The notes beneath the pieces are model-generated. The model ran no database searches and was not told the origin of the DNA. It saw only the letters and a program-made list of their open reading frames with translations. The position numbers were made by a program, and so were the translations under genes. A stretch of 28,804 nt of DNA from a virus, in IMG/VR virus record IMGVR_UViG_3300027847_000620, positions 1-28,804 of that record. One strand, written 5' to 3'. Below are positions 2,777 through 28,239 of this stretch, one piece after another. How positions within the stretch are numbered: the stretch's first letter is position 1; every line of letters starts with the position of its first letter.

Positions 2777-3382
2777 CTAATGTTGCTGCGGGGTGGGTGG
2801 TATAGCAAATAATCGCCGAGCAGATTCAAGGTCTTCAGGCGTGTTAATGTCCATTGCGCTCAGCCAGTCGACTGCAATGAAATTCGACTCATCCATAAAA
2901 TCAGCCACGCTGGCTTCGCGGTTTATCCGCCAGAAGTTGCCTGTCAAAAACCATTCATCCCCTAAGTGCTGCGACAATGTGGAGCCGTTTGCTGGTCGAT
3001 GCAGGGAGCCTCTCCATGCACTCCGCACAATATCTCTGTCGTCTTTCGATGCCGCAATTGCGTCCTTCTTGTCTGTAAATGGTGACGTGCATTGCATAAG
3101 CATCACTGGCTCTTGGTGAATCCGAAACAGTTCATTCATGGGGCCAGATGCGTTCCTGCGGTCTCCCGTGTCGTCATCGCTCAGTGGAAAAACACTGCAA
3201 CCGTACCGCTCGGCAATGTTGGATATCTCTTCGTCCTCGGTCGCCACAAACGTCCGCGATTCAGGAAACCAACTCACCGCCTTTGCGATGGCCCTCTCGA
3301 CGAGAGAAACGCCACCGAGCAACTGAAGGTTCTTCTTTGGGACTCTGCTCGAAACGCCCTTGGCTGGTATCAGGATATTCAT
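2777..3382 (-). CDS. CMP-sugar (NeuA/KdsB-type) cytidylyltransferase
   Basis: The 201-residue protein belongs to the acylneuraminate/KDO cytidylyltransferase family, which activates an acidic sugar with CTP to make a CMP-sugar. Seen: the N-terminal nucleotide-binding signature IPAKGVSSRVPKKNL (residues 5-19; compare IPARxGSKxxPxKN), the MQCTSPF motif (96-102; family QPTSPL) and the C-terminal DINTPEDL motif (178-185). The length is slightly below the usual ~220-230. The substrate cannot be read; sialic acid, legionaminic/pseudaminic acid or KDO-like sugars are all possible. The ATG overlaps the stop of the upstream glycosyltransferase-like gene as ATGA, implying translational coupling and a shared pathway. 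No sugar-synthesis genes (NeuB/NeuC types) are in the window, so the sugar would come from the host or from elsewhere in the phage. Confidence 0.85.
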   Translation of the reverse strand: MNILIPAKGVSSRVPKKNLQLLGGVSLVERAIAKAVSWFPESRTFVATEDEEISNIAERYGCSVFPLSDDDTGDRRNASGPMNELFRIHQEPVMLMQCTSPFTDKKDAIAASKDDRDIVRSAWRGSLHRPANGSTLSQHLGDEWFLTGNFWRINREASVADFMDESNFIAVDWLSAMDINTPEDLESARRLFAIPPTPQQH

Positions 3383-4041
3383 GGCTGAAACTTATGCCCC
3401 TCAAGTCCGAAGTTGGCGAACGGAGAGACCCCCACGATCGTGCATCCGTATTGCGACTGGAGCCTCTTTTTTATCTCGATGAGTTGTGGTTCACTTTGCC
3501 TCACGAATGTTCGATACCACTTTTGCCGCTTGTCACCATTGTCGTTCGACCCCTTGTTGTACCCGTCGTATCCCATCTTTCCATCCAGCATCCCTCCGTC
3601 TACGCCGCACAGAAAAATACTCTTGGCTCCCATATATGCCGACAAGTGAACCGCCGATGTGATAGTGGAGCGACTGACAACCAGCTTGTCCGTCCCGATT
3701 ACCGACCAATCAACTTTAGTCTGCCTATTATCCTTGTGCTGAAATATCCAGTAGTCCTTGTCGGTATCGTAATTTGTTTTATCTTTGCGGTGAGTGCCAT
3801 GACTATGCTCGGACACAACGAATTTGACTCCATCTCTGGATGCGTTGAGTGCCTCAACCGGAAGCTCCTTGCCGACAATGTAAGAACACGGGAAATCAAG
3901 AAACGTCCAATTAACGCACACTACCACCCTGTCTCTGAAAAACTCTGGGTCGTAATGCCCCATTGAAGCGGCAGCACCGACGACCCACACATCCTCGCCC
4001 GTCTCCACGCCTTTGAGTTCGGATACTGGTCTCGCGCTCAA
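3379..4041 (-). CDS. GT42/MptE-like (DUF115-type) putative sugar transferase
   Basis: The 220-residue protein has an N-terminal VVGAAASM (residues 20-27) in the place of the GNGPSL nucleotide-binding loop of CMP-sialic-acid transferases (Cst-II, GT42) and MptE-like proteins. A central STITSAVHLSAYMGAKSIFL stretch followed by CGVDGG (125-150) resembles the TSGVYMCAVAIALGYKEIYL-SGIDF segment of that fold. A late VSPFANFG (205-212) sits where the CPNS motif is expected. The catalytic His of Cst-II is not evident after residue 150, so transfer activity is inferred, not shown. The start is TTG at 4041 with GGGAG about 7 nt upstream. It overlaps the CMP-sugar synthetase by 4 nt, which fits use of a CMP-activated sugar as donor. 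The alternative is an MptE-like pyrophosphokinase-fold protein with another role. Confidence 0.65.
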   Translation of the reverse strand: MSARPVSELKGVETGEDVWVVGAAASMGHYDPEFFRDRVVVCVNWTFLDFPCSYIVGKELPVEALNASRDGVKFVVSEHSHGTHRKDKTNYDTDKDYWIFQHKDNRQTKVDWSVIGTDKLVVSRSTITSAVHLSAYMGAKSIFLCGVDGGMLDGKMGYDGYNKGSNDNGDKRQKWYRTFVRQSEPQLIEIKKRLQSQYGCTIVGVSPFANFGLEGHKFQP

Positions 4042-4088: not shown

Positions 4089-7000
4089 TCACGCGAGTGA
4101 CACTTCAATTACATCTTGAAATGGTATTTTTACATTTAACTGGAATCCACTCGCATCGGATTCTGGAACCGAGGTCGCCCGAGTTCCTAGTCGATTGCTT
4201 ACGTTTCCAGAGTGACACACAATCATCCACAGGTTTCCATTTTCAATATGACGAACAGGAAAGTCATCTGTTATCTGTCCGTGCGAATTGTGGAAGACCG
4301 TCTTCAACTCACTGGACAGTTCCACCAAAGATAAGAACGGATTCGATTTGTGAGCAAACGGTGCCACACGACCTTCTGCCCATCGATATCCATTTTTTAT
4401 GTTTAGCAACTCCTTTTTTGGAAGTGCATGCGACTGAATTGACTCAATGAACGTCTCGTGTACCGCATCGTCGGAATCAAGTCGCGTGGTGATTATCCAC
4501 TCATGCGGGCAGTGAATCAATCGTCGCAAAACGTCTGGATCTGCGCGATCCATCCACCCATTATTGCCTGTGCTTCTCTCTTCTTCTGGGAGGTCTAGTG
4601 ATGAGTCGAAGTATTCCACTCGCATTGAGGGGAAGCCATCAGCCAAGTCCTGTAATTTGGATCGCACAAACTCTGGGGTCGTGATGTCACACAGGATCAG
4701 CCACTCGAAATCCTGATTTGTCTGACCGACCAGCGATGGGTAGGTGAACCGCTCAAGTAGAAGTAGTCGTTTTTTCAACCACTCTTCATTTTCGTTTTTT
4801 CCAGGATCTCTAGCGAGATTGAAGCGAGTGATTACCGTATGGGAAAACTCCATGCGATTTGTGGTCTTCACTTCGCTTGCCGGGAACCCTCTCTGGTGCC
4901 CTCGCGTTGGTGGCCCACAGAACGGGTCCACAAAGCTGCCTATGTCGATCAACCAGCACTTGGGTAGTTCTGTCGCCAATTCGTGGATGAGGACTTTTGC
5001 AGTTGGCCCAGCAGCAAACAAAAATATGTCACCGTCCTTAGCGCAGTCCCGAATGCTTCCAATGATTTCGTCGTAATCGTCCCAGTTGTTTTTTTCTTTT
5101 GTGACAATCACCTTATCAAACCGAATGACATCCAAGCCCTTCATTCGATCCGGCCCAACTAGAATCACTCTTCCGTCGTGTGAGTTGACTGGATCAAGAA
5201 AACCAGAAATATCACGATCCATATAGGCTTCGGCGAACACCGCAGCGTTATGCCATTCCCGTTTATTGCCTGCTGAATTTAACCATTCCTTGGCAGCACC
5301 AGCGAATATACCGAATCGCGTTGCGTAGATTGCCGGACTGCCAGATGCCGCAACATTCGCCATCGCACTCCTGAGTTCTGGTGTGAATACCTGGCTCTTA
5401 CTACCTGTTGTCTTTCCATTCGCAACAATCGCATTCCACTCACCATCCCCAAGTCGCAGGAACGAAAACGGCTGCTTGTTGGCTATCTTGTCGCCGTAAT
5501 AAGACAGCGAGTGGTTCACCTCGGTCCATTGAGGATCGGAAATATAAGGCTTCCCTTTCAGTGCCGCATGGGCCGCCTTCGTTTGCGATCCGCGATCAAT
5601 ACCTAGCCGCCCAAATGTGGTTGTGTGTTTATGTTCGGCAAAGGCGTCGAGGGATAATCCAATTTTCCATCCCGCCTTTTTTGCTCGCACACACCACTCG
5701 TCATCACTACCCAAGTTGCGGTAAACGTATTCTCCAGACAGCAGGCCAATGTGGCCTAGAGCGTTCTTTTTTATGAGGGTGCAAAAGAACGCCACGCTCC
5801 CTCTTGAGAGTGTTTTATCCTCGCCCTTGCGGCTTCTTAATTCCGCCCGCCCAACAATTGACTGCGCCCCCTTGTCCGCCGTCAATGGCCCCACCGCAGC
5901 CATCTTCTGGTCTGCGTGTAAATGCCTCCGCAACGTCGCGACCGTCGCCGGCTCGACAAAGCAATCGTTATTCAACAGCAGCACGTCACCAGTGGCGAGT
6001 GCCAACCCTTGATTCGTCGCCATCGTGAATCCAGTGTTCTCCGGGTTCCTGATCCCCGTGAACATCAACTCAAGTTCTGCCGCCTTCTCTTCCACGCCTG
6101 CCAGCACGCCCGATTCCGACCCGTTATCAACGTAGATGACATGCAGGTCGACGCCTTCGCTCTTGGCAAGATGTTCAAGGCACTTCTCAGTCAAGTCGAG
6201 GCTGTCGACGCCGGGAATTACCACATCAATCGGGTGCTTTGGTCGCTTGTCCTCGAAGGTGTCAAACGGCGAAACATCCTCACCCGGCCACTTGAGTGAC
6301 TTACGAAACTTGCGGCCCCCGCGTTCTGTCTCGTCTGTGTCAGAATATATCGTGGACGTCGCCCCGATATGTTGCACCATGCCGGGGTCGTAAACGTAGA
6401 CGTCCAGTTCCCAGTCGGACATTGTTTGTCCTATGAAACGGTCGATGCACGACTTCTTCTCTGGCACCTCGTTGCGGTTTGGGTGACCGGCCCACGCCTC
6501 ACACTTCGGGCTGTCAGCAATCCGCTTGGCTATCACCATTGGGAATACCATTGCCACGGCACCGTTTAGATCCCGCACGGCGACCCGCTTGCAACCGACA
6601 AACCCTTCCTCTTCGTAGTGTGTGTCGTCGGGGCAGTAGAGCGACACCACGCCCGTCTTCTCGCCCGGCCACGGCATCTCATCGAGGAATTTGCGAGTGC
6701 CTTTACAGAACAGTGCGTCGTCCTGAAAGATCGCGACCCACTTAGCCTGCGGGTTGTGCTGCACGAGGTCACGGATCGTCTGCATCCAGTTCCGGTGCGG
6801 GCCATGCAGGAACGGCCGAGTCATGATTGACGCATTGACGCCGTCGATGTTCGTGCCTGGTTCGGCATAGACAGTCGGAACGAATCCGGCGCGATGGCAA
6901 CTTTCGACAGACTGTTTGAGGGTCGGCTTCCTGCGGGGTGCTGTTGTGATTCCAACCGCCCAGTCCGGTTGCGTTTCACGCTTTGCGGTCTCACCCCATT

Positions 7001-7412
7001 TCCCGATCGGACATGCGAACGCTCGCCCCTTGGCTTTGAGGTCGACGTTGCAGCCGCAGATTTGGCAGGATCGGCCGTCTCGCATGTTGCAGGAGTTGCA
7101 GGTGTCGAGTCGTTTCTTGTATTCGTCGGCATCGACCAGTTTGAGGCCGTCTGATGCGAAGTCCTTGAGTGCTTTGGCGAGGCTCCAGCCCTTTGTAATG
7201 AGGCTTGGTGGCTTGGCGATGATTGGACCACCCACCGTCCCGCCACTATATTTCGATCTCGTATCTTCTAGGTCAACACCCGCATTTTCACACCATCCGA
7301 TGCGATACTTCTCACCCTTCTCTGTTGGGGATTCCCATAATTTCCATAGTCCACCGAGGATATGGAGTCCCAGTACCTTACAGAGTCCAGGTTGCGGGTG
7401 ATTACAAGACAC
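4089..7412 (-). CDS. Zinc-ribbon plus four-domain glycosyltransferase polyprotein
   Basis: The 1107-residue protein has several modules. Residues 1-140 carry two Cys clusters, including C105-x2-C108, C116-x2-C119-x-C121 and C134 in CPIGKW, a zinc-ribbon type seen in phage proteins. Residues ~151-372 look like a GT-A transferase with IFQDDALF (228-235) as the metal-binding motif. Residues ~393-620 are a GT2 domain: VDNGS (428-432), NPENTGF (456-462), LLNNDCF (479-485) and DDEWCVRAKKAGW (570-582). Residues ~640-835 match the GT-D/DUF1792 type, with FLRLGDGEW (651-659). Residues ~855-1107 resemble the putative rhamnosyltransferase family (RFNLARDP 863-870; TRLDSDDA 976-983). The start is GTG at 7412, directly abutting the upstream TAG, with GGAG 13 nt before. 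Acceptor and donor sugars are unknown. The downstream neighbours make and use a CMP-sugar, so a multi-sugar glycan is a reasonable inference. Confidence 0.85.
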   Translation of the reverse strand: MSCNHPQPGLCKVLGLHILGGLWKLWESPTEKGEKYRIGWCENAGVDLEDTRSKYSGGTVGGPIIAKPPSLITKGWSLAKALKDFASDGLKLVDADEYKKRLDTCNSCNMRDGRSCQICGCNVDLKAKGRAFACPIGKWGETAKRETQPDWAVGITTAPRRKPTLKQSVESCHRAGFVPTVYAEPGTNIDGVNASIMTRPFLHGPHRNWMQTIRDLVQHNPQAKWVAIFQDDALFCKGTRKFLDEMPWPGEKTGVVSLYCPDDTHYEEEGFVGCKRVAVRDLNGAVAMVFPMVIAKRIADSPKCEAWAGHPNRNEVPEKKSCIDRFIGQTMSDWELDVYVYDPGMVQHIGATSTIYSDTDETERGGRKFRKSLKWPGEDVSPFDTFEDKRPKHPIDVVIPGVDSLDLTEKCLEHLAKSEGVDLHVIYVDNGSESGVLAGVEEKAAELELMFTGIRNPENTGFTMATNQGLALATGDVLLLNNDCFVEPATVATLRRHLHADQKMAAVGPLTADKGAQSIVGRAELRSRKGEDKTLSRGSVAFFCTLIKKNALGHIGLLSGEYVYRNLGSDDEWCVRAKKAGWKIGLSLDAFAEHKHTTTFGRLGIDRGSQTKAAHAALKGKPYISDPQWTEVNHSLSYYGDKIANKQPFSFLRLGDGEWNAIVANGKTTGSKSQVFTPELRSAMANVAASGSPAIYATRFGIFAGAAKEWLNSAGNKREWHNAAVFAEAYMDRDISGFLDPVNSHDGRVILVGPDRMKGLDVIRFDKVIVTKEKNNWDDYDEIIGSIRDCAKDGDIFLFAAGPTAKVLIHELATELPKCWLIDIGSFVDPFCGPPTRGHQRGFPASEVKTTNRMEFSHTVITRFNLARDPGKNENEEWLKKRLLLLERFTYPSLVGQTNQDFEWLILCDITTPEFVRSKLQDLADGFPSMRVEYFDSSLDLPEEERSTGNNGWMDRADPDVLRRLIHCPHEWIITTRLDSDDAVHETFIESIQSHALPKKELLNIKNGYRWAEGRVAPFAHKSNPFLSLVELSSELKTVFHNSHGQITDDFPVRHIENGNLWMIVCHSGNVSNRLGTRATSVPESDASGFQLNVKIPFQDVIEVSLA

Positions 7413-8552
7413 CTAGGCAGTCTCCGTAACTTTAACAGACCATGTGCCGAATTTATCAGTGCAGCAATCGCAAATATCCGCAGTTGCTTGCATTCCAATG
7501 AAAGTAAGCACAAGAGGACTACACGTACAGCCAGACTCAGCAAAATACTGGTTGTTAGACATGCAGTCTGTGCCAGCCCCATCTCCGTAGATTAAAAGTT
7601 CAAATGCACTACAAAGACTGCCGCCACACGTTAATTTTGCATAAAATGACGACAAGCATGACGAACCCACCAGGTAAGTTCCCTCCTGTATACTGTACCC
7701 AGCAGACTCCCACCACTCATCGACTGAGTTCCACGTCATCGCAATCTCTCCTCCATCCATGTCTGCACAGCCAGACACACCAGAGAATGTTAATGTTATT
7801 TCAGACGATAGAAGACCCCCGCAACAATCAACACTGATATCACCACCCATTCCGCTGCCGCTGCCGCTACCAAGCCCTAAGTCATACGGATTGATACAGA
7901 TAATACACGGCACATCCGTCACGGTTGATGACCCGGAGTCAGCGGCCCCTACGCCAGCCGAGCTACATATCAACTTCATCTCGTTCGGGCACATCGGACA
8001 CCAGTCCCAAGTGTTCTTCCACACCTTCCCGCCGTGAGTTAGCGTGACATCCTGAATGCCAGTTCCACCCACGACGAGAGTGGCCTTCGCCGACTCAGAC
8101 CCCCATGAAAACGCATCTTCCGTCTCCCATGTGCAGCCCGTGCTGTATCTCAGGTATTTCGCCCCTAGTGTCGTCGTGGGCACGAGTTGGTATGCGTCTG
8201 GCATCTCCGAGAAATGTGAACACGTCGAAATCGAACCCGTCTCGGTGCAGTTGGAGCAATCGCAACCCGGACGATTCGGTGTGATTGGCCAGTAATCGCA
8301 TCCACCGGATGAGTTTGGAACACAAATGACCGGAACGTCATCGCCCGGTCGAAACCCATCACCCGGTGCCCACGGAGGGTTTGTCGCTGGCAAGTCTGGA
8401 CCGCCCGCGCCAACGCCTCCACCACCCGGCGACCACGGGAGCAAATTCGGCCACGGTGGAAACTGCGCAAGCGGCGCGAGGACTTGTCGCAATAACGGGT
8501 CCGGCCCCACGTAGCGGGGTGTGCGGAACGCGCCCTTTTTTGGACATGCCAT
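7413..8552 (-). CDS. Cysteine-rich secreted/virion-type protein, unknown function
   Basis: The 379-residue protein has 25 cysteines by my count, many in C-x-C, C-x2-C or CC arrangements (CDCSNC, CPMC, DCC, CTC, CDCC). Residues ~1-75 are Pro/Gly-rich with no clear signal peptide. The remainder is beta-rich with repeated phrases of the type EITLTFSGVSGC and LVLTFIGMQA, suggesting two or three diverged copies of a Cys-bounded beta domain. From memory, comparable Cys-rich beta repeats occur in Planctomycetes and their phages, but I cannot confirm homology. The ATG overlaps the upstream stop as TAATG, and its own TAG abuts the glycosyltransferase GTG. The context suggests an appendage component stabilised by disulfides or metal. 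A role as acceptor for the neighbouring glycosyltransferases is speculative. Confidence 0.75.
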   Translation of the reverse strand: MACPKKGAFRTPRYVGPDPLLRQVLAPLAQFPPWPNLLPWSPGGGGVGAGGPDLPATNPPWAPGDGFRPGDDVPVICVPNSSGGCDYWPITPNRPGCDCSNCTETGSISTCSHFSEMPDAYQLVPTTTLGAKYLRYSTGCTWETEDAFSWGSESAKATLVVGGTGIQDVTLTHGGKVWKNTWDWCPMCPNEMKLICSSAGVGAADSGSSTVTDVPCIICINPYDLGLGSGSGSGMGGDISVDCCGGLLSSEITLTFSGVSGCADMDGGEIAMTWNSVDEWWESAGYSIQEGTYLVGSSCLSSFYAKLTCGGSLCSAFELLIYGDGAGTDCMSNNQYFAESGCTCSPLVLTFIGMQATADICDCCTDKFGTWSVKVTETA

Positions 8553-16058: not shown

Positions 16059-16406
16059 CTATACACTCTGGACGTTGAGTTCGCCATCCGCCCCGCCATC
16101 GGCAAGCGTAATGACACACGCCTCGTTTGGCGTCTGGGCGTTGTGAATTCCACCACCCGGATAGTTCGCAAAAGGGATGAACCCAACACCCGCGTCAGTG
16201 ATCTTGACTGACCACTTCGTCACGCCACCGAAAGCAATCGTGAGGCCGCCTCCGGTCGGCGCGGCCGCGTAAGACCACTGCAAGGACTGGATGACGTGGT
16301 ACTCGCCGACAGTAGATGCTCCCAACGTGATTACCGTTGGGTTCCCACTGGCAATCTGGTCGGCAGAGTTGGTGACGATCGCTTCGTCGTTGGCTTGGAG
16401 TAGCAT
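16059..16406 (-). CDS. Small beta-rich structural protein, unknown
   Basis: The 115-residue protein starts MLLQANDEAIVTNSADQIAS. It alternates hydrophobic strands with Gly/Thr turns (TVGEYHVIQSLQWSYAAAPT, then GGGLTIAFGG, then KWSVKITDAGVGFIPFANYP) and looks like a single beta-sandwich domain. It has no catalytic motif. ATG at 16406 follows AAGGA by a short spacer. It is one of a series of short beta-rich genes between the adaptor and the fibre gene, so a tail or head-surface role is likely, but I cannot name the family. Confidence 0.65.
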   Translation of the reverse strand: MLLQANDEAIVTNSADQIASGNPTVITLGASTVGEYHVIQSLQWSYAAAPTGGGLTIAFGGVTKWSVKITDAGVGFIPFANYPGGGIHNAQTPNEACVITLADGGADGELNVQSV

Positions 16407-16463
16407 TGTCGAAGTCCTTGCAGTACGTCAGACACAGGTAACGAAACGGCGAAGCGGGGGTTC

Positions 16464-17216
16464 TTACAATGCGTCAGGGACGAGCGCGGAGATATCGGCA
16501 CCGAGTTTCGTTTGGCCAGTTACGATCCAGCCGTTCGTTTCGACGTACCGGCAGGTGTAATACGCATCCTGCGTCAGTGCGAGTTCGTTTGTTGCGCCGA
16601 CCGTGACGTCATTGACCGTGTGGGCCGCGACGGCAGAGATCAGTTCGCAGGCGGCACCCAAGACGTGAATCTGGATGACGTCACCAACAGTTGCGGCCGG
16701 CAGGCTGATCTGCTTGGTTGCGCCGTTGCTGGTTGCCGTGACGTTTTTTGTACCCTGAGTGATGAGACCTGTGGTTCCACCACCAACTGTCGCCGTGATG
16801 GCTTCGGTGCCGTGATCCTGGACGCCATTGGCGTAGACGGTGGTCGGCGAAACGCCGGCCACACCGTCAGACTTAAGGACTCGCCAAGCGAATGCGGTTG
16901 TGCTGATTGCGACGGAAACGAACTGGACGAAAGAGCCAGCGGTCGTGAACGTCAGTGTCGTTGAACCCGCAGCGTCGAACGCCGTGGCTGGAGTGATGGC
17001 AACGTCACCACCATCAGTCATGAAACATATCTCTAGCATCTCGCCGGCCACCTCGGGGTCGGAAAGAACGCGAGTCTCCGAACCGGCAGAGATAAGTTGC
17101 AGAACCATCCCCGAACCTTGGGGAGTGATCGTGCCGGCATCGCCCGGATCGTCCAGTCGGCCGTGTAACTTGAGTGCTTCTCGGTGACGAATGAACCATT
17201 GGCTGGGGTTGGACAC
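16464..17216 (-). CDS. Structural protein with two related beta domains
   Basis: The 250-residue protein starts GTG at 17216, supported by AAGGAG about 8 nt upstream. Two segments have a similar layout: residues ~38-115 (SETRVLSDPEVAGEMLEICF, then DVAITPATAFDAAGSTTLTF and AFAWRVL) and residues ~160-240 (KQISLPAATVGDVIQIHVLG, then HTVNDVTVGATNELALTQDA and GWIVTG). Each has a control phrase, a hydrophobic strand, a V/T-rich strand and a closing aromatic strand, suggesting internal duplication of a fibre-type beta domain. Such domains occur in phage fibre and tail-tip proteins. Function is not established. It sits 12 bp downstream of the duplicated adaptor gene. Confidence 0.65.
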   Translation of the reverse strand: MSNPSQWFIRHREALKLHGRLDDPGDAGTITPQGSGMVLQLISAGSETRVLSDPEVAGEMLEICFMTDGGDVAITPATAFDAAGSTTLTFTTAGSFVQFVSVAISTTAFAWRVLKSDGVAGVSPTTVYANGVQDHGTEAITATVGGGTTGLITQGTKNVTATSNGATKQISLPAATVGDVIQIHVLGAACELISAVAAHTVNDVTVGATNELALTQDAYYTCRYVETNGWIVTGQTKLGADISALVPDAL

Positions 17217-17228
17217 GGCTACTGCTCC

Positions 17229-19094
17229 TTAAAGTGATGTGTTGTCGAATGAAATTGTGTTGCCGTCGCGAATGTACTGGCCATCGCTGTTTATCGTGCT
17301 GGGGTCGCGATTTCGCCCAAGTCGAGCGGGGGCCATTTCCGCCTGATCCATCTCGATCGAGGCCGCCATCAACTCGCGAAACCGTCCGGCTTGCGACTTG
17401 TCGACCAACGAGATGCAACTTGCGAGTATTGTTTCTGAATGCTCAGAACCGCAGTAAGGAAATTCGCCGGTCAGTAATTCGACGGGGTCCACTTTGCAGC
17501 GATAAGTCAGCAAATAAACGTCATCGGGAGGCGGCCAAAAGAAGACTTCCCATCGCCTGCCGGTTGCAGCCACTAACGCCTTCGGTCTGAGTGAAGCGTA
17601 TCGTGGCTGGTCGGTGGTTTCCCACCCCTGATACATCGAACGGATCCGGTTGTCGGGAATGATTTCGATCGGGCGATCGAGACCGTTGACTCCCGGCTGA
17701 AATGTGAATGTCTGCGGGGCACTGAAGCCAGCAAAGTCACTCTCTAAGTCGTACTTCGTCTGCTGGACAATATAGGTCGTTAAGGCTGCGGAATCGGCCG
17801 CATCGGTCGTGTCCTCAAGTGTGACTTGCGTATTGCTTTCCCGCGTGTCGATCGCATAGGTGGTCCCGGAGATAACGATCTCGCCGCTCGCTGCCCATGT
17901 TGGGAATGTACCGTCCACTGTGAGCGTGACGACGCCCGAGACGATCGTAACTGTTCCGGTTGAATAGGACGCCTTGGTCGACAATTCTTTCACCGGACGC
18001 ATAAACGACCACAGATGCGTCTTGTGCATCCCGTCTTGGGCCGGCATGTAGAACTGCTTCAGCCCACGCTGAATGAATGAATTGACGCGACGTTCGGTGT
18101 TGTGACCCCAAGTCTTGGCGTTCGCGCCAACATTGAGTGCGACACCAACCTCTTGTGCCAACCAATCGTAGGATCCGATTGTGACGGCCGTATTTCGGTA
18201 ACTCTTGCCGTCGATGCGGCTGGCTCGCTTATCGATTTGCACAGAAGCGGCCATTCGGGCTTGGAATGCAGCCCCATGAACGCCCGATGTGCCGTCGACC
18301 TTGATCTCCGCTGCGGCCAAGCACGACTCAAGGATTGTGTCTGAGTGCGCCAACCCACCGAGCGGATACTTGTTCGTCGGCGTCATCTTGCTGGGGGCGA
18401 TTTTGTAGCTGTACTCGGCGACGTATGTGGCATCTGGTGTGGGGTAAAAGATTGCCTCGAATCGCTGCCCGTCCGTCTGGTCAATCGCCTTTGGTCGAGT
18501 AGCAACGTATTGGGGAGCGCCCGTCACGTTGTCCTGTGCCCGCATGGCTTGCAGTTCGGGCACCGACACAATTTGAATAGGTTCCTGAATGACGCCCACC
18601 CCATACGTTATGTGCGACAAAACCTGATCGAAATTGTCTGGCAGATCGTAATCGAACCCTTCCGCCACAGTGAGGCTTAACGCCGTGGCCGGATTCAGGA
18701 ACGACCAGACATAAGGCGTCTTGTGTTCTGAGTTCTCGCCCATCGGCACCGGGGCGTAGAAGCTCCGCTGGCCGGACTTGATGCAGTCTGTGACCGCATC
18801 GTAGCCGGGTTCTTCGGTTTGGAGTAGGACGTAGGCTGTGGGGCCGGCATCCGTTACAGATGTGTCGTCGAGCGTGATGGCTGTATCGCCACCGCGAGAA
18901 GCGACTGTGTAGCCCACGCCGCCGAGATCCACTGTGCCAGCCGCCGCCCACGTCGGGAACGTACCGCCCGTAAGCGTGACGACCCCTGACGATATGGCAA
19001 AAGTGCCAGCCGAGTAGGTGCGACCGAGACCGAGAAGTCGCATGACGTCTCGGCAGCATGTCGCATAATCAACGGATAGTGTGGACTCAGCCAA
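17229..19094 (-). CDS. Internally duplicated putative head-tail adaptor protein
   Basis: The 621-residue protein reads as two copies of one fold. Copy 1 contains SGQRSFYAP (107-115), WSFLNP (130-135), YDLPDNF (149-155), RPKAIDQTDGQRFEAIFYPT (200-219) and HSDTILESCLAAAE (250-263). Copy 2 contains RGLKQFYMP (343-351), WSFMRP (362-367), YDLESDF (448-454), RPKALVAATGRRWEVFFWPP and HSETILASC. Each copy also holds a beta module with SGVVTLT and GTFPTWAA (28-92 and 378-446), placed at different points in the two copies. The FY-P, WSF-P and YDLP-F pattern is what I associate with phage connector/neck proteins, so an adaptor role is inferred. The start is TTG at 19094 with GGAGG 6 nt upstream, overlapping the preceding gene by 8 bp. 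Confidence 0.7.
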   Translation of the reverse strand: MAESTLSVDYATCCRDVMRLLGLGRTYSAGTFAISSGVVTLTGGTFPTWAAAGTVDLGGVGYTVASRGGDTAITLDDTSVTDAGPTAYVLLQTEEPGYDAVTDCIKSGQRSFYAPVPMGENSEHKTPYVWSFLNPATALSLTVAEGFDYDLPDNFDQVLSHITYGVGVIQEPIQIVSVPELQAMRAQDNVTGAPQYVATRPKAIDQTDGQRFEAIFYPTPDATYVAEYSYKIAPSKMTPTNKYPLGGLAHSDTILESCLAAAEIKVDGTSGVHGAAFQARMAASVQIDKRASRIDGKSYRNTAVTIGSYDWLAQEVGVALNVGANAKTWGHNTERRVNSFIQRGLKQFYMPAQDGMHKTHLWSFMRPVKELSTKASYSTGTVTIVSGVVTLTVDGTFPTWAASGEIVISGTTYAIDTRESNTQVTLEDTTDAADSAALTTYIVQQTKYDLESDFAGFSAPQTFTFQPGVNGLDRPIEIIPDNRIRSMYQGWETTDQPRYASLRPKALVAATGRRWEVFFWPPPDDVYLLTYRCKVDPVELLTGEFPYCGSEHSETILASCISLVDKSQAGRFRELMAASIEMDQAEMAPARLGRNRDPSTINSDGQYIRDGNTISFDNTSL

Positions 19095-19857
19095 CGGCTA
19101 CCTCCAGATTCATGTCGACAAGCGGAGGGGCGTCATCTGGCGACTTGCGAACGTGACCCAAGTCGACGATCCGATACGCCTTGTCATCCTCATTGAAGTG
19201 GATCCTGGCCTTGCCGGCGCTGTCGCCACCGAGGACCAACACAAGTTCCCCGTCAGCCTGTTCTTGGCCGGGCACCGCAACCATGACCCTTGTGCCCACC
19301 TCAACTTCACTCCAGAGCATTTGGGCTTGATTCGGCGAAGGTCGCGGCGCGGCCGGCTCGTCACTCAATGACTCGTCGCCAGTGAGTTCAGGTTCCGGCT
19401 CAAGTTCTTCGGCCGTAACTTCTGTGGTTGTGAAGGTCTCGACGACCAGTGGTGCCGGTGGCTGGGCAGGAATATCGAGACTGACGAAATCTGCATCCAC
19501 ATCAGTCTCGGGGTTCGAGTCGCCCTGAATGGAGATTCGCAGTAGCCCGAACGACAAGCCTTTGTGCGGAAAGACGAACGTGCCTACGAGTTGTTGCGTT
19601 CCACTCTGGTACAGAATTGGAGTTCCCGGCTCCACGTCGTCCCATCCCGAAACCTGATCGGGCGACAATTCGACAGCGCCCGATTCGACGGCGATTGTGA
19701 TGAGCGCACCGTAGTGGTGCGGTGCCATCGGGCCGGAACTTCGGCGTTGCCATGCCTTGAAGTACAGCTTGGCTTTATCGGTGACCGACTGTGGAAGTTC
19801 TCCCGTGCAATTGCAGAGTAATTTCAACTCTGCAATGTCTTGTGCGTGTAGTTCCAT
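19087..19857 (-). CDS. Unknown phage protein with Pro/Glu-rich linker
   Basis: This is a 256-residue protein. ATG at 19857 is chosen over the one 15 bp upstream because GGGGA lies about 8 nt before it. Residues 1-110 (MELHAQDIAELKLLCNCTGE) start with a helical segment, followed by a beta-rich part (LITIAVESGAVELSPDQVSG; LVGTFVFPHKGLSFGLLRIS). Residues ~120-185 form a Pro/Glu/Thr-rich acidic linker. The C-terminal ~70 residues are another small beta domain (EVEVGTRVMVAVPGQEQADG; KAYRIVDLGHVRKS). I do not recognise either domain. It is the first gene after the terminator that follows the head genes, and it overlaps the adaptor gene, so a connector or completion role is plausible but unproven. 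Confidence 0.65.
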   Translation of the reverse strand: MELHAQDIAELKLLCNCTGELPQSVTDKAKLYFKAWQRRSSGPMAPHHYGALITIAVESGAVELSPDQVSGWDDVEPGTPILYQSGTQQLVGTFVFPHKGLSFGLLRISIQGDSNPETDVDADFVSLDIPAQPPAPLVVETFTTTEVTAEELEPEPELTGDESLSDEPAAPRPSPNQAQMLWSEVEVGTRVMVAVPGQEQADGELVLVLGGDSAGKARIHFNEDDKAYRIVDLGHVRKSPDDAPPLVDMNLEVAVG

Positions 19858-19873
19858 CGAAATTCCCCGCATA

Positions 19874-19921
19874 AAACTGAAAACAAGAAAACGGGGCGGC
19901 GGGAATTACCCGCCGTCCCGT
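19874..19921 (-). terminator. Rho-independent terminator after the head genes
   Basis: On the minus strand a 13-bp stem, ACGGGACGGCGGG pairing with CCCGCCGCCCCGT (one A-C mismatch), closes a 5-nt TAATT loop and is followed directly by TTTTCTTGTTTT. It lies between the decoration-protein stop (19934) and the next gene's start (19857). It should stop or attenuate late transcripts after the capsid block. Confidence 0.9.
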
Positions 19922-19933
19922 CAGTTAGAGTTA

Positions 19934-20686
19934 CTAGGAATCGAATTCTTGGGCACAACTGTACCAGTCGATGTGGGTGATCGGATCGGCTGTTCCGTCC
20001 GACTGACACACGAACGACGGCTTCATCCCGACGATCGGAATGTTCGCAGTCGCCACGTTGATGCCTGTGGTGGCGATCTTCGCGCCGTCCACATACCACT
20101 CGACCTTGTCGATCCCGGTGACCTTGAATCCCAGCTTGACCCAAGTGCCATCAACGAGAGTGTTGGTGGTAACGCCCGTGTGGGCCGCCGAAGCATTCTC
20201 GGAGTTTCCGAGCAGGATCATGTTGTCGGTGATCGATCCGAAACCAATGTGGTTAGCGGACGTGTTTGCGCTACCGGCGATGATCGAGGTGTCGTATTCC
20301 GACAACCCAACAAAGAACTCCGGGCCAGCCGACGCAACATCGACTACCTTCAAGCGAGTTTCAAACCAGATGACACTGTCAGCCTTGGGCGTAATGAACG
20401 ACCCAGTTGCGCCAGCGGTCTGGACGTTGGCACCCTGAGTCACTGTCGAACTGGCACAGTCGAGAAGGGCAACGCCGCCAATGGCGTCGTCCAGAGCGAA
20501 AGTACCGGACGAACCCGCTTGGGTCGTAAGATACCGTTCGGCCAGAAGATCCTCAGTGAAATCGTCCTCAATGAGAACGCCACGAACGAAATCGTCTTTG
20601 ATTTCGAGTCGCGGGCAGCCGTGCCACAAGTTATTGGAGCGACCGCGACCTTCGCCGTCCGAGTCGCTGAATTTTACGATGGTCAT
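19934..20686 (-). CDS. Concanavalin-like putative capsid decoration protein
   Basis: The 250-residue protein immediately follows the major capsid gene. After an N-terminal extension with KDDFVRGVLIEDDFTEDLLA, residues ~60-250 read as a concanavalin-type jelly roll: GGVALLDCASS, DSVIWFETRLKVVDVA, EFFVGLSEYDTSI, TWVKLGFKVTGIDKVEWYVD and the closing ITHIDWYSCAQEFDS. Proteins with this fold and position commonly sit on the capsid surface or mediate weak glycan binding; assignment as a decoration protein rests on gene order. The start is ATG at 20686 with AGGAGGG upstream, a strong site consistent with high expression. Its stop is followed by an intrinsic terminator, so it ends the head transcription block. 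A minor tail protein is the main alternative. Confidence 0.7.
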   Translation of the reverse strand: MTIVKFSDSDGEGRGRSNNLWHGCPRLEIKDDFVRGVLIEDDFTEDLLAERYLTTQAGSSGTFALDDAIGGVALLDCASSTVTQGANVQTAGATGSFITPKADSVIWFETRLKVVDVASAGPEFFVGLSEYDTSIIAGSANTSANHIGFGSITDNMILLGNSENASAAHTGVTTNTLVDGTWVKLGFKVTGIDKVEWYVDGAKIATTGINVATANIPIVGMKPSFVCQSDGTADPITHIDWYSCAQEFDS

Positions 20687-20745
20687 AATTGACCCTCCTG
20701 ATCTTTCTTAATTGACAGAACAAAACAAAACGAAACGAAGCGGAC

Positions 20746-21804
20746 TCAGGCGACGTGGAGAACGAAGTTTTGGCGTCGGTCATTGCACCGCAGGTTGCAG
20801 GAAGAATCAACATGCACGACGCGGACGTTGTGCTGGTTGTCCTTCTTCTGCGGCTTGGTCCGAACCATGTCCTTACCCTTCAGGAAAGCAAAGTCCATCG
20901 TATTCCAATTCACGCCGTAGAGCGGATTGGCCGAGTCGTATCCGTCCTGCGTGGAGTGGGTCAGTTCGGGAATCCACTGCAAGGGAACACCCTTGAATGT
21001 TGGACGACCTTTGGCACCTGTTCCCGCGAGGTCCGACAGGTTGTCGTTTCGCGCGTCGAGGAACTGCTGGGCCGCTTCGTAGACCGAGTAGGTCGTGTAG
21101 AACATCCAGTCTGGGTCGCCGCCGCCGTTCTGCGGGAACTGATGCGGTGACTCGAAGTGCGTAAACTCAGTTGCCTTAAGCCACTTGGAAATCAGGTCGT
21201 TCCGCGTCACTGAGACATACGCACCGGAGTAGTTCGACCAGTTGATATACGTTCCGGTCGAGACGCCACCCGCACCGGCAGCGAAACCACTCGGGTCGCC
21301 ACCATTGAAGCCGACCGTCGCGTTCTTCTGCAACCAAAACGGGATGCCGGAGAGCGGACGTTTCGCCAAGGTTGAGGATGAGGGGGCCGACCAGAATGCC
21401 GACTCCAAACCCTCGTAGAGATTCGAGTACATCGAATGCTCTCGCATGACAATCAGATCGATGATAATCTCGCGATTGCCCCCTTGGAATTCCTCCTCGT
21501 TAATATCATAAACATAATTGCTGGTCGCGATCGCCCAGGGCTGCTCGGCACCGACCGCCAAGTTCTTCACATCGTACTCGTCGACCGAGTACAGGTTCGT
21601 CCAGCGAAACGCATCCGTGTTCGAGACTTGGAGTTTCCAAGTCTGCTTCGGAGTCGCCTTCGTTGGCGCTTTTTTGGCTTTCAGCCATCGCGATGCAACG
21701 GAGTATCGCTGGTTGTTGAGACTGAGGTCGACCCACTTCGCACGGTCGGCCTTATTGTAGGTCAGTTCGACAAGGTCGTCGATTGCGTCGGGCATGAGGC
21801 CCAT
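20746..21804 (-). CDS. Major capsid protein (HK97-fold type)
   Basis: This is a 352-residue protein, a normal size for a phage major capsid protein without a delta domain. Features pointing to this family are the helical MPDAIDDLVELTYNKA start, the spine-like EEEFQGGNREIIIDLIVMRE with a following GLESAFWSAP, the late FKGVPLQWIPELTH, and the NPLYGVNWNTMDFAFLKG followed by a C-terminal RCNDRRQNFVLHVA. Many copies would assemble the icosahedral shell around the scaffold encoded just upstream. ATG at 21804 has AAAGGTG at proper distance; an in-frame ATG three codons later is less well spaced. No transmembrane or catalytic motif is present. Fold assignment is from motif recognition and gene order. 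Confidence 0.85.
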   Translation of the reverse strand: MGLMPDAIDDLVELTYNKADRAKWVDLSLNNQRYSVASRWLKAKKAPTKATPKQTWKLQVSNTDAFRWTNLYSVDEYDVKNLAVGAEQPWAIATSNYVYDINEEEFQGGNREIIIDLIVMREHSMYSNLYEGLESAFWSAPSSSTLAKRPLSGIPFWLQKNATVGFNGGDPSGFAAGAGGVSTGTYINWSNYSGAYVSVTRNDLISKWLKATEFTHFESPHQFPQNGGGDPDWMFYTTYSVYEAAQQFLDARNDNLSDLAGTGAKGRPTFKGVPLQWIPELTHSTQDGYDSANPLYGVNWNTMDFAFLKGKDMVRTKPQKKDNQHNVRVVHVDSSCNLRCNDRRQNFVLHVA

Positions 21805-21838
21805 GATTAAGCACCTTTCTTATTGATGCACACCAGCG

Positions 21839-23107
21839 TTAGGGAAGGTTGTTGTCGTTGAAGAACGCGACAAAGTCGGGGTCGTCAGCGAAGTCGCCAT
21901 CCCACGGAACATCTTCCCGAGCGGTCGTTGACTGCCCGGAACCCATGATTCGCTTGTTCTGCTTTTTCACGGACGCCGTAACGGCCGTTCGTTGCTGGTG
22001 CGCGATTTGATTAGGAAATGCCAACTGGAGAGATCGTTGAACGAGTTCCGCGTTCATGTCCGATGGCCGGTTGGTCGAATAAAGACCAGCCTGCAATGAC
22101 ATTGCTTCGCGGTACAACAACTCAAAATTCGCGTTCTGTTCTTCGGTGGCGGTTTCGCCATCTCCAAACAGTTCGGTCTGATCGAGTTGATTTACTCCTT
22201 CAAAAAACTGATCCAATTCGGCATTGTTTTTAACTTGCTGATCTTGCTCCTCACGACCAATAACGTGATCGTAAACAGCCTTTAGGTCACCCTGTTGCTG
22301 ATCGAACCTCGATTGCATCTCCCTCTGAGCGGCGTCTTGTGCCACTCGGTTGGAGTACATATCCGTCAGTTCAGCCAGGATGGATTCGTCATGGCCGTCT
22401 TCCCGAAGTGCCTGTATTCTCGCCGCGAACTCCGGCTTTGATTCCGGTTCAACGCCTTGAGGTGCAGGTTGGCCTGCGGGATTAGGCTGTTGTTGTTGTT
22501 GCTGCTGCTGCCACTGTTGTTGCTGCCACTGTTGTTGCTGCCACTGTTGTTGCTGCCACTGTTGTTGCTCTGGCGTTAGCTGCTGCTCTGGCGTTAGCTG
22601 CTCCTGCTGTTGCTGCTCCTGCTGTTGCTGCTCAGGATTAACATCGGGCGGTAATTGTTCTCGACCGACGTTCGCTAACGCCCGGTCTTGAAGTGCCAAC
22701 GCCCGCTCAAACTCTTCAACGCTCTCGAATCCGGCCACCTCGTCGGCAGCCATTCCTCGATCTTGCGCCAAGGACAGAATCTTCTGCCCCTCTTCGCTGA
22801 CTTCAGCGGCGGGAGTTGTGTCGGCGGAAGTTTCATCGCCAACAACAGGTTTGTTGCCCCCTACTTCGCCGGCCGGACTTTCATCGGCAGACTTAGGGGA
22901 CGTTTCTTTTGGTTCTGGAGTCGAATCCGGTGTATTTTCTGAATCAGGACTGGTGCCCAGTTCCGCTTCAGGCTCGGGTTCACCGCCCGGCCCATCGCTG
23001 GAAAAGTAGTGGTCGACCGCGGACGCACTTGCATCGTGTTCGACGGCAGCCGAACCAACCTCGGCCTCGTTACCAGCTTCTTCTTGTTTGATCGGTTTCA
23101 AAAACAT
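21839..23107 (-). CDS. Putative scaffold/capsid-assembly protein with polyGln tract
   Basis: The 422-residue highly acidic protein lies between the portal module and the major capsid gene, the usual place for a scaffold. Residues 1-110 are Glu/Ser/Pro-rich and disordered. Residues ~110-150 are helical (EEGQKILSLAQDRGMAADEV, then FESVEEFERALALQDRALAN). Residues ~158-208 are a polyGln tract with WQQQQ repeats and two LTPEQQ repeats. Residues ~220-350 are charged and coiled-coil-like (ALREDGHDESILAELTDMYS). The C-terminal KKQNKRIMGSGQ is basic, as expected for the capsid-binding tail of scaffolds, and is followed by an acidic end. ATG at 23107 directly abuts the upstream TAG and is preceded by GGGG. 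Whether it is cleaved or recycled is unknown. Confidence 0.75.
   Translation of the reverse strand: MFLKPIKQEEAGNEAEVGSAAVEHDASASAVDHYFSSDGPGGEPEPEAELGTSPDSENTPDSTPEPKETSPKSADESPAGEVGGNKPVVGDETSADTTPAAEVSEEGQKILSLAQDRGMAADEVAGFESVEEFERALALQDRALANVGREQLPPDVNPEQQQQEQQQQEQLTPEQQLTPEQQQWQQQQWQQQQWQQQQWQQQQQQQQPNPAGQPAPQGVEPESKPEFAARIQALREDGHDESILAELTDMYSNRVAQDAAQREMQSRFDQQQGDLKAVYDHVIGREEQDQQVKNNAELDQFFEGVNQLDQTELFGDGETATEEQNANFELLYREAMSLQAGLYSTNRPSDMNAELVQRSLQLAFPNQIAHQQRTAVTASVKKQNKRIMGSGQSTTAREDVPWDGDFADDPDFVAFFNDNNLP
22486..22635 (-). repeat. CAG/CAA-rich microsatellite encoding WQQQQ and TPEQQ repeats
   Basis: On the plus strand the 15-bp unit ttgctgccactgttg recurs four times around 22509-22569, preceded by ttg/ctg triplets. 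It is followed by two copies of an 18-bp unit (gctctggcgttagctgct) and two of a 15-bp ctcctgctgttgctg unit. All remain in frame in the scaffold gene. The tract is a good candidate for copy-number variation. Confidence 0.9.
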
Positions 23108-23470
23108 CTACCGTTTCCCCCCTTGTTCGACGAACTCCCCGCCAACTTTCCGGTACTGACCGCTGCGTTCGCTGGTGACATCCACCAAACCTCGCGCGTT
23201 CAAGTATTTGGTCTTGCTACCAGGGCTATTAAATTCTGCGGCTCCGTCCCGTCTGATCTCTACGCCGACAAGCCCCTTGTCGCGGCACCATGCGGCATGC
23301 TCTGATGCCTGGTGCGGCATGACGCCGGACGACAGCGACTCGTGTCCCGTTCCCCAATAAGTCTCATGGCCGCCCGGCGTCTTCCGGTCGGCAATAATGT
23401 TCTTGATCCCATCTGCTCCACGCAGAAACTCTTCTTGGCTGATCTCTTTTCCGTGGACGATGTATTTCAT
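23108..23470 (-). CDS. Small portal-adjacent protein, unknown
   Basis: The 120-residue protein begins MKYIVHGKEISQEEFLRGAD. ATG at 23470 is preferred over an in-frame upstream ATG because it forms an ATGA overlap with the upstream zinc-ribbon gene. The centre (WGTGHESLSSGVMPHQASEH, then AAWCRDKGLVGVEIRRDGAA) and end (KTKYLNARGLVDVTSERSGQ) resemble a family of small proteins encoded next to portal genes that carry an S-GV-P-Q---A-----GV motif followed by a short charged tail. I know no biochemical function for that family. Its TAG abuts the scaffold ATG. Some charged residues and one Cys are present; no signal or membrane segment. Confidence 0.7.
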   Translation of the reverse strand: MKYIVHGKEISQEEFLRGADGIKNIIADRKTPGGHETYWGTGHESLSSGVMPHQASEHAAWCRDKGLVGVEIRRDGAAEFNSPGSKTKYLNARGLVDVTSERSGQYRKVGGEFVEQGGKR

Positions 23471-23649
23471 TTTGGGCGTCGATTCATTGTGCAGTTGCGG
23501 CAAAAGCTGTAGTTCTTCCGCGTCCCCTCGGGGCACGATTCAATTGGGAACCGCTTGCCGCATTTTATGCAATTCTTCTCGTAGGCGCGGGATGTCGTAA
23601 GTTTTCCGATCACGGCACCCGTCACTGCGTAGACTGTCGTTGTTTTCAT
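23467..23649 (-). CDS. Zinc-ribbon mini-protein (60 aa)
   Basis: This 60-residue gene starts at ATG 23649, with GGGGGG about 6 nt upstream. The sequence MKTTTVYAVTGAVIGKLTTS is followed by NCIKCGKRF, ESC, and FCRNC (pairs C-x2-C and C-x2-C with another Cys between), the layout of a zinc ribbon. The C-terminus is basic (TMNRRPK), suggesting nucleic-acid binding. Its ATG overlaps the portal stop as ATGA and its stop overlaps the next ATG as ATGA, so it is translationally locked between portal and the following gene. Function is unknown. Alternatives are a regulator, a packaging accessory or a metal-stabilised structural element. Confidence 0.75.
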   Translation of the reverse strand: MKTTTVYAVTGAVIGKLTTSRAYEKNCIKCGKRFPIESCPEGTRKNYSFCRNCTMNRRPK

Positions 23650-25529
23650 TGCATGCCCCCCTGCTGCTGCTCTTGGCCCTGCTGCTGACCGGCGCTCGCC
23701 AAGAGCGACTGCTGATTCTGGACTCGCTGCGCATCCGGCGTCCCGCCCGTCGATACACTCTTTCTGACGTATTCGCGGCTGGTATTGGCCGGCATACCCG
23801 GCGCGTTGCCTTCCGGTGTGGTTGGCTCGTAACCGTCGTCGAATGTGATCCACCGCTTGATCCGCGGCATATCGGCCATGTCTGCGTAGTCTTCGACGAT
23901 CGCCTTGAAGTCGATCGATCCGCCCTGTGCCCGAATCTCTTCTCGTAACGGGAGTGCGAGATCCCGCAAGAACGCGGTCAAACTCTGCATCCGCTCGGTT
24001 GGCGACTTATACGCCATCGAGTACGGCTCGACCTTGAAGTTGTACTGTAGGTAGTCGCCCTCGCGTTCCCCTGGCGTCCACGAAGCATCGATGGGGAGAT
24101 CGATTCCGCTTTCGTGCCGCTGGCCAGGAATCTCCTTGACTGCATCCACCCACAGCATCCAGCCAATATCACTCATGATATTGGCCGTGAAAGCGACCAC
24201 ATGGTACTGCATCTTAGCTTCACGCTTCGACACGGCACCGTGGATCAGCTTATCTTGCCCAAGGGTGTCCGACTGCGGTCCAAGGCCGGCCATCGCATCG
24301 AGATTACCGGCCATCCGGGAAAATGTGCCGTCGATGTTCGAGAAGAACGCGAGGTCGGTTTGGTCAACGCCGGCAAAGTGAATCTCCTTGACGGAGTCGA
24401 TGTCGCTCACCTTTATCATCTCATTATTGCCAGCCGACTGGATCTGCTGTGCGTCCTGCCCGTCCCCGCGGTAGGCCGTGACTGTCTTTGAATCGCGTGA
24501 GTTGCGGGATTGCTTCCGCATGATCGAGTTCATCAGGTCGTGCAGCCCCTTGAGGTTCTGCGCGGGTGAACTCGGCATGATGTTGTCTGGAACATCCGAG
24601 AATGACAACAGATGGAATGGCCCACCCTCGGGTCCGTCCCACTTTTCAATGAGCAATGGAAGCAGCCCATCCTCACCGGCATCCGAGAATACGCACCACT
24701 TGCCCTCACGGGGCAGCCACACATCCATCAGGTTGACCATCGGGCTGGTTTCGTCGTGATCTACGTTCGCCTGTGTCATTTCGCTGACTGGATCGGCACC
24801 CTCGTGTCGCTGGTCGCTGTCCCATTTGCTGCTGGATTTCAGTTTTTCTACGTTTTCCTTGAAATCATCGAACCGCATGTCCCCCTTCACATCTTCAAGC
24901 GGAACCCGATATTCATGGACTGCAAACTCGATCTTCTCCCATGACGTTGCACGGGTATCGAAGATGAAGTCGTCCAGTGAGACTCGCGCCAACATCGGCC
25001 GGCCGGGGTCCACCCAGATGTTTGGCTCGATCCCGCCAGCTTGGGCTTCTCTGTACTGGTCCCATACGCCCTGCGGTGCGCCTTCCCACGGTTCGGTGGG
25101 CATGTCGGGGTTTGGCATCTCGATCGGCTTACTCGGTGCGAGGAACACTTTGGCAATGCCGACCGAAAAGAACGCATCGAGAACAATCATTCGCAGCGAT
25201 TCTTCGATGTGAATCTCCGCGATGTGGTTGTTGACTGCCGTCTGGAACGTCTTTGAGAATCGGTAAAGGCTGTCTTGTGCTGTTGTGATGAGGACACGGG
25301 GGCGCTCGGCAGCGAGCGAAAACGTGTAAGTATTCGCAGTCAAATTTAACATATTGACGAGAACTTCACGCACCTTGCTGTCGCCATCGCCATCCGAGTC
25401 GCCCCAGTGCGAACCCACGTACTCTTCGATGAGTTTCTTTCGATTCTCACAGAATGGCCGTAGCGTCTTCCGGGACGTTCGGATCGCCCTCGCAAGTTTT
25501 GAACGGTCGGATTTTTTGAGTGGATTCAT
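23646..25529 (-). CDS. Phage portal protein
   Basis: The 627-residue protein lies in the normal position between terminase and scaffold/capsid genes. It starts with a basic helical region (MNPLKKSDRSKLARAIRTSR), contains EYVGSHWGDSD and VREVLVNMLNLTANTYTFSL early on, and has a long helical crown region near FNFKVEPYSMAYKSPTERMQ and LTAFLRDLALPLREEIRAQG, all like portal proteins of tailed phages. The C-terminal ~25 residues are Gln-rich (QQQGQEQQQGGMQ), echoing the Gln bias of the scaffold. Twelve copies would form the DNA-entry ring. ATG at 25529 lacks a clear Shine-Dalgarno sequence; only GAAGAAA is near, just after a run of nine C residues. A candidate promoter/operator element lies 41 nt upstream. 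Confidence 0.85.
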   Translation of the reverse strand: MNPLKKSDRSKLARAIRTSRKTLRPFCENRKKLIEEYVGSHWGDSDGDGDSKVREVLVNMLNLTANTYTFSLAAERPRVLITTAQDSLYRFSKTFQTAVNNHIAEIHIEESLRMIVLDAFFSVGIAKVFLAPSKPIEMPNPDMPTEPWEGAPQGVWDQYREAQAGGIEPNIWVDPGRPMLARVSLDDFIFDTRATSWEKIEFAVHEYRVPLEDVKGDMRFDDFKENVEKLKSSSKWDSDQRHEGADPVSEMTQANVDHDETSPMVNLMDVWLPREGKWCVFSDAGEDGLLPLLIEKWDGPEGGPFHLLSFSDVPDNIMPSSPAQNLKGLHDLMNSIMRKQSRNSRDSKTVTAYRGDGQDAQQIQSAGNNEMIKVSDIDSVKEIHFAGVDQTDLAFFSNIDGTFSRMAGNLDAMAGLGPQSDTLGQDKLIHGAVSKREAKMQYHVVAFTANIMSDIGWMLWVDAVKEIPGQRHESGIDLPIDASWTPGEREGDYLQYNFKVEPYSMAYKSPTERMQSLTAFLRDLALPLREEIRAQGGSIDFKAIVEDYADMADMPRIKRWITFDDGYEPTTPEGNAPGMPANTSREYVRKSVSTGGTPDAQRVQNQQSLLASAGQQQGQEQQQGGMQ

Positions 25530-25566
25530 GTGGTTTCTTCGGGGGGGGGCGATTCTCGAATTTACG

Positions 25567-25611
25567 AAACCCCTACATAACTAATCAAGAAAAAGTTGGA
25601 GTTTGCGTTGT
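25567..25611 (-). promoter_or_regulatory. 45-bp intergenic element, copy upstream of portal
   Basis: On the minus strand this reads ACAACGCA, nine variable bases, then TTTTTCTTGATTAGTTATGT and AGGGGTTT. It matches the copy at 28049-28093 at 36 of 45 positions by eye, with 26 of 28 in the distal block. It lies between the stop of the upstream gene and the portal start, so it is a candidate late promoter or operator. The core lacks a normally spaced -35/-10 pair. Confidence 0.6.
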
Positions 25612-25616
25612 AAATT

Positions 25617-28026: not shown

Positions 28027-28048
28027 TGCACAATTCCCCGGTTAAACA

Positions 28049-28093: not shown

Positions 28094-28099
28094 GATTTG

Positions 28100-28128: not shown

Positions 28129-28151
28129 GCTTGTGTTCGTGTTAGTTTCAA

Positions 28152-28218: not shown

Positions 28219-28239
28219 ACCACACAGAGGGGAATGGGA

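Follow-up and report, generated by a model that had tools for sequence, protein, structure and literature searches.

Why would a phage carry, among the genes for its own particle, a protein in which four glycosyltransferase (GT) modules follow one another on a single chain? The question is raised by a gene at positions 4089-7412 of the IMG/VR virus record IMGVR_UViG_3300027847_000620, a 28.8-kb fragment that was analysed over its full 28,804 nucleotides (the window); this gene and the other window features described below are encoded on the minus strand. A preliminary description had read its product as GT-A, GT2, GT-D and rhamnosyltransferase-like modules behind a zinc ribbon, forming a single-chain glycan assembly line within a tail operon. 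In our assessment there is an even chance that its product is a soluble multi-transferase and forms part of a cassette for glycosylating the virion, carried by a tailed phage of planctomycete-like (PVC) bacteria. Two findings go beyond the preliminary description: the first GT module, here named GT-A1, represents a recurrent phage family with a Cys-rich N-terminus of its own, and in viral genomes the gene preceding it is Cys-rich or poly-Ser far more frequently than expected by chance.

Domain anatomy of the 1107-residue protein

The open reading frame (ORF) starts with GTG and is free of stops throughout its 1107 codons, while the five alternative frames across 4089-7412 contain 27-56 stops each, so that the single long gene of the preliminary description is real. 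By Pfam matches, an AlphaFold2 (AF2) model and fold search, the product is a fusion of a Cys ribbon with GT-A, GT2, GT-D-like and Rhamno_transf domains, and the acidic motifs announced for the four transferase parts were each found at the residues named, i.e., QDD at 230-232 (positions 6717-6725), NND at 481-483 (5964-5972), GDGE at 655-658 (5439-5450) and LDSDD at 978-982 (4467-4481). All four segments could be assigned to glycosyltransferases as proposed, with GT2, GT-D-like and Rhamno_transf being predicted as such by matches above curated Pfam cut-offs and the remaining one by its modelled fold. At the C-terminus, residues 855-1107 (4092-4850) match Rhamno_transf (PF11316) over residues 876-1075 with E 4e-20 and 72.8 bits against a cut-off of 23. 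For residues 393-620 (5553-6236), Glycos_transf_2 (PF00535) is matched over 397-525 (E 7e-14, 52.6 bits, cut-off 23.3), accompanied by a weak phmmer match to the WrtF fucosyltransferase; the acidic DxD-type motif of this GT2 domain is the NND triplet, and LLNNDCF is also present in the bacterial contig L106 discussed below. Between these two domains, residues 640-835 (4908-5495) match PF22882 over 747-829 (E 3e-7, 30.6 bits, cut-off 27), with a second PF22882 stretch covering GDGE, while GT-D proper (PF08759) scores 25.2 bits, just below its cut-off of 27; the domain announced as GT-D (DUF1792-like) is therefore called GT-D-like here. Residues 1-140 (6993-7412) show the pattern C-x2-C..C-x2-CGC..CPIGKW and match phrog_13558 (E 4e-13) as well as DUF6171 (PF19668) at residues 93-139, the latter with 27.4 bits against a cut-off of 27, a margin of 0.4 bits. 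The Cys spacing and this narrow match favour the zinc ribbon initially proposed, a label that is kept as putative and based on sequence.

No Pfam family was matched by GT-A1 itself (residues 151-372, positions 6297-6962), its sole family match being phrog_854 "glucosyltransferase" with E 8e-4. An AF2 model built with 14 viral homologues (pLDDT 79, pTM 0.83) gave 532 matches in the PDB at E <= 1e-3 by Foldseek, the matches listed being almost all glycosyltransferases. Families were compared among the best 50 matches, and the best solved folds among those listed are human POMGnT1 (Z 17.5, 3.3 Å, 197 residues) and GnT-I (Z 16.8). Judged from the model, GT-A1 is a GT-A fold domain closest to GT13 enzymes, with which it shares the fold and an acidic DD motif that follows one of the core strands. 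GT13 enzymes carry EDD at this motif, whereas GT-A1 carries QDD, and identity to POMGnT1 and GnT-I is 8-14%. As a sequence profile of GT-A1 (A3) matched nothing in the PDB, including any GT13 sequence, the resemblance is taken as one of fold rather than of family membership. In agreement with the expectation that acidic catalytic residues are kept in homologues, the two domains that were aligned show R-x-D-x-D-D to be invariant in 6/6 Rhamno_transf sequences and QDD to be conserved in 68/68 GT-A1 homologues, of which 27 came from a scan with QDD as one of two patterns and 41 were found without a QDD pattern.

GT-A1 as a recurrent phage family behind cysteine- and serine-rich genes

Scans of viral contigs with single proteins (the full protein, its GT-D segment or GT-A1) found no relatives, tblastn against isolated phages returned only a ribbon in cyanophage PSS2, and no credible match to the GT-A1 or GT-D segment was obtained in phages or plasmids. 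GT-A1 was searched with a degenerate alignment (A2) centred on TTAPR, GP..NW and QDD, the artificial variant rows of which served as search pattern only, and every match was confirmed by tblastn against the real sequence. GT-A1 was recovered at 17 viral loci and then in 27 further viral contigs, as well as in 24 bacterial contigs, with Planctomycetes and Verrucomicrobia predominating among the latter. In cellular genomes it is rare (6/294 in a sample from the phylum of a Singulisphaera metagenome-assembled genome, MAG). Judging solely from these GT-A1 relatives, the host of the window virus is probably planctomycete-like.

Directly upstream of the 1107-codon ORF, with its stop codon touching the GTG start, lies a gene (7413-8552) for a 379-residue protein with 6.6% Cys and a GSGSGS stretch, which is proposed as acceptor or partner of the transferases. 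Genes were scored as Cys/Ser-rich when their products had >=15 Ser in 30 residues, or >=3.5% Cys together with two CC/CxC motifs, and 7413-8552 is the only window gene of this kind. In the first set of viral loci, the gene upstream of GT-A1 was Cys/Ser-rich in 12/16 cases, compared to 8/451 other ORFs. A held-out set, consisting of contigs found with other motifs and scored by the unchanged criterion, gave 9/15 dereplicated loci versus 11/285 ORFs (Fisher p 1.4e-8). In several of the failing loci (L263, L277, L278 and L286), a Cys/Ser-rich gene is located one position further upstream. Moreover, the Cys/Ser gene and GT-A1 ORFs often touch or overlap in viral loci. The neighbour is Ser-rich in relatives such as L088, L096 and L271, the poly-Ser runs of L088 and L096 counting 55 and 159 Ser, respectively, and the run-bearing part in L096 being continuous with a large protein that is repetitive and fibre-like. 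Since the Ser runs in L096 and L098 are encoded by all six Ser codons, these runs are kept at the protein level and do not result from simple DNA-repeat expansion. Viral proteins with 34-159 consecutive Ser flanked by CC/CxC were observed at L096:4520-4997, L098:4610-4952, in L271 and at L278:6876-7388, and in several poly-Ser viral proteins the Ser run is preceded by a MGRPC.CC or CCC signature.

Most members of the family possess a Cys-rich module of about 110-200 residues ahead of GT-A1. C-terminal extensions are methyltransferase-like in L092, FkbM methyltransferase plus GT4 in L102, Rhamno_transf plus methyltransferase in L261, GT2 plus methyltransferase in L109, GT2 in L106 and L113, and GT4 in L123. 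The closest architecture is that of L106, a contig of a Planctomycetaceae MAG, in which a Cys-domain ORF overlaps a 563-aa GT-A1+GT2 ORF (E 1e-77 and 35-41% identity to the window protein), followed by a methyltransferase-like gene and then a sulfotransferase. Among the neighbour genes in relatives are more GTs, FkbM methyltransferases and one sulfotransferase. With the modules being separate or in smaller fusions elsewhere, the window protein can be regarded as a longer fusion of them. The GC content at third codon positions (GC3) across the modules of the gene, which declines from 0.71 in GT-A1 to 0.47 in Rhamno_transf, is in keeping with a mosaic origin. Besides, a 737-aa viral protein (L101:7653-9866) combines GT-A1 with a phosphoribosyltransferase-like domain (PF00156 just under cut-off). 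A GT-D candidate in L278 (9204-9971) bears the motif-like YVRFGDND, but gave no Pfam match and is not claimed.

The Cys domain is also encoded on its own. Relatives are present in 147 viral contigs, the ORFs examined having <=240 codons and most of the standalone ones showing a CPxGKW motif near the C-terminus, and the Cys pattern of the DUF6171-type domain is kept in viral homologues. PSS2 has two copies, one an unannotated 62-aa ribbon protein (L002:5079-5267) immediately ahead of the tape measure gene and the other forming the C-terminal end of ACT65647.1, a protein with the annotation DNA-directed RNA polymerase. A second Cys-module type, GPGTxLK...C.C....M...G...C, precedes GT-A1 in other viruses; at L201:1926-2423 and L166:10197-10694 it is standalone, downstream of Cys-rich genes and without GT-A1. 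In planctomycete glycosyltransferase clusters, a small gene that by eye is NifU/IscU-like adjoins the Cys-ribbon gene (L110:3715-4083, L114:3970-4335).

The virion or the host surface as possible target

In line with the tail operon of the preliminary description, the gene is placed within a phage structural operon, genes for large terminase, SU10-type portal, major head protein, tail fibre and LamG-like proteins being located on the same strand. Contig L129 is 99.99% identical to window positions 16173-28804, meaning that the window virus occurs twice (second assembly), and ends short of the 1107-codon gene. Downstream, the gene at 3379-4041 follows after a 47-base gap and is itself overlapped by 4 bases by the gene at 2777-3382. 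The latter encodes a predicted 201-aa cytidylyltransferase for CMP-sugars of the nonulosonate/KDO type (PF02348, E 1e-13), with PseF as best NCBIfam profile (E 3e-15, under its cut-off) and NeuA as PDB match (E 4e-7). The 220-aa product of 3379-4041 is a weakly supported MptE-like/sialyltransferase-like protein and possible fifth transferase (PF01973, E 0.0017, below cut-off; phrog_4603, E 0.003), for which a relative was not found in the PDB.

In the proposed pathway, the four transferases would extend a single glycan sugar by sugar late in infection. This glycan, probably an O-linked one, would be carried by the Cys-rich virion protein encoded next to them (7413-8552). The Cys domain may dock the enzyme on this protein, and the fusion would hold the growing glycan on a single chain. 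A CMP-activated acidic sugar would be supplied by the cytidylyltransferase and perhaps attached as a cap by the 220-aa protein. From the invariant acidic motifs of the two aligned domains, the modules found as neighbour genes or in smaller fusions elsewhere and the two downstream sugar-related genes, a single-chain assembly line may fairly be inferred as initially proposed, its catalysis, transfer order and acceptor being predictions. The finding that GT-A1 relatives are usually encoded beside Cys-/Ser-rich genes points to phages of this kind coating their own particles with sugars. A wider generalization is more tentative and falls somewhat short of an even chance: many uncultured PVC phages may possess a mucin-like virion glycoprotein system, in which a Cys-anchored poly-Ser structural protein (MGRPC.CC-Ser(n), with <=159 Ser) is densely glycosylated by its dedicated Cys-module/GT-A1 enzyme together with variable GTs, methyltransferases and sulfotransferases, the pathway being condensed into a five-domain chain in the window virus.

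Several observations weigh against virion glycosylation as the function. The complete five-part architecture was found in no relative by the viral contig scan or by tblastn on isolated phages, and the model of the GT-D/Rhamno_transf part is of low confidence (pLDDT 48.5). The product of 7413-8552 has no poly-Ser run, its densest stretch of 30 residues containing 7 Ser, and among the Cys-rich neighbours clear sequence homology was not shown outside close groups, their likeness being one of composition and place. Furthermore, the Cys/Ser criterion was drawn up after inspecting the first set, which is why it was tested on new contigs. Standalone ribbons are located beside Cys-rich genes in 2/56 cases versus 17/718, so the ribbon in its standalone form was rejected as a mark of Cys-rich acceptors and its role as adaptor is a guess. 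Poly-Ser alone likewise failed as a mark of the system, GT-A1 being present on the fragments of 0/44 of the poly-Ser ORFs listed, which were sampled irrespective of GTs. According to these negatives, the link runs from GT-A1 to the Cys/Ser-rich neighbour and not in the reverse direction.

Phage glycosyltransferases frequently target host surfaces, and the main rival explanation, which we consider rather unlikely, is that the enzyme modifies the envelope polysaccharide or a surface protein of the host in a seroconversion-like manner, blocking superinfection or altering receptors, with its place in the structural operon reflecting late expression only. Bacterial GT-A1 relatives are indeed found in host-like glycan clusters, in L110 and L114 also adjoining other GTs and a Cys-rich/RHS-like protein, and the downstream cytidylyltransferase makes sugars that are frequent on bacterial surfaces. 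Against this, the gene abuts a Cys-rich gene amid structural genes, Cys/poly-Ser neighbours are strongly enriched in diverse viral loci, the held-out set included, and no membrane segment is obvious by eye in the 1107-aa protein. The preserved order of Cys/Ser gene and GT-A1 in diverse viruses, with ORFs often in contact, also argues against a reading in which the Cys-rich and poly-Ser proteins serve as flexible spacers or adhesins that carry no glycan, and the GT block is unrelated cargo that tends to enter the structural module at one shared variable end. This explanation appears improbable, despite poly-Ser tracts without GT-A1 being frequent in viruses, a GC3 spread between modules that fits mosaic cargo and the occurrence of Ser-rich low-complexity tracts in bacterial polysaccharide-processing enzymes (PMC6821194). 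A decaying fusion with only part of its domains active, or a contig artefact, is highly improbable given 1107 open codons with intact motifs where stops crowd the other frames and similar fusions such as GT-A1+GT2 (563 aa, L106) and GT-A1+Rhamno_transf (L261), even if the gene is covered by one contig, L129 ending before it, and the N-terminal half of GT-D is weakly matched.

Relation to known systems and significance

Single-chain viral multi-transferases are already known from chloroviruses, and the window protein is a variant of them. In PBCV-1, A064R (638 aa) comprises two rhamnosyltransferases and a methyltransferase and A111/114R (860 aa) three GTs; both build the glycan of the virus' own capsid protein and are predicted to be soluble, without a signal for endoplasmic reticulum or Golgi (PMC9614988). 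The likeness consists in several transferases on a single virus-encoded chain. In contrast, PBCV-1 is a eukaryotic algal virus in which the major capsid protein carries an N-glycan, the GT families differ and a Cys ribbon is missing, whereas the window protein has four GTs and a putative acceptor and belongs to a tailed phage. GT-D plus GT-A-type domains in one chain are shared with dGT1 of the Fap1/serine-rich repeat protein (SRRP) system, where GT-D (DUF1792) and GT-A domains act in succession on the O-glycan of a Ser-rich protein (PMC5063993) and a later enzyme adds rhamnose (dGT1, GalT2; PMC5063993, PMC5207161). That system differs in having a bacterial adhesin as acceptor and separate genes for the other steps, and it has a Gtf1/Gtf2 initiator not seen among the window ORFs scanned; in the window protein the chain order is reversed (GT2 before GT-D) and GT-A1 and the Cys ribbon are extra. 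A Ser-rich acceptor beside GTs, as in the SRRP system, does not occur in the window, where the neighbour is Cys-rich instead, and no GT1/GT4-type match corresponding to a GtfA/GtfB initiator pair was obtained among the subset of window ORFs scanned in this fragment record. In mycobacteriophages, phage-encoded glycosyltransferases have been linked to virion glycosylation (Freeman et al., 2023, Cell Host Microbe, via PMC11256854). For mycobacteriophage Maravista, which has another host, GT genes are located towards the genome's 3' end and no four-GT chain is described there (PMC11256854). In the literature searched, in which subscription journals are thinly covered, no description was found of four GTs joined to a Cys ribbon in one phage protein, of the Cys/poly-Ser gene pair or of poly-Ser phage proteins with glycosyltransferases.

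With at least 40 viral loci, GT-A1 constitutes an unannotated GT-A family without a matching Pfam model. Few cases of phage virion glycosylation are known. If the proposed function is true, the Cys-rich gene and its transferase would provide a testable acceptor-enzyme pair and, for comparison with chlorovirus A064R, a naturally occurring transferase that performs four steps on a single chain, and the pairing of a Cys-/Ser-rich structural gene with its own GTs would indicate that glycosylated surfaces are widespread among uncultured phages.

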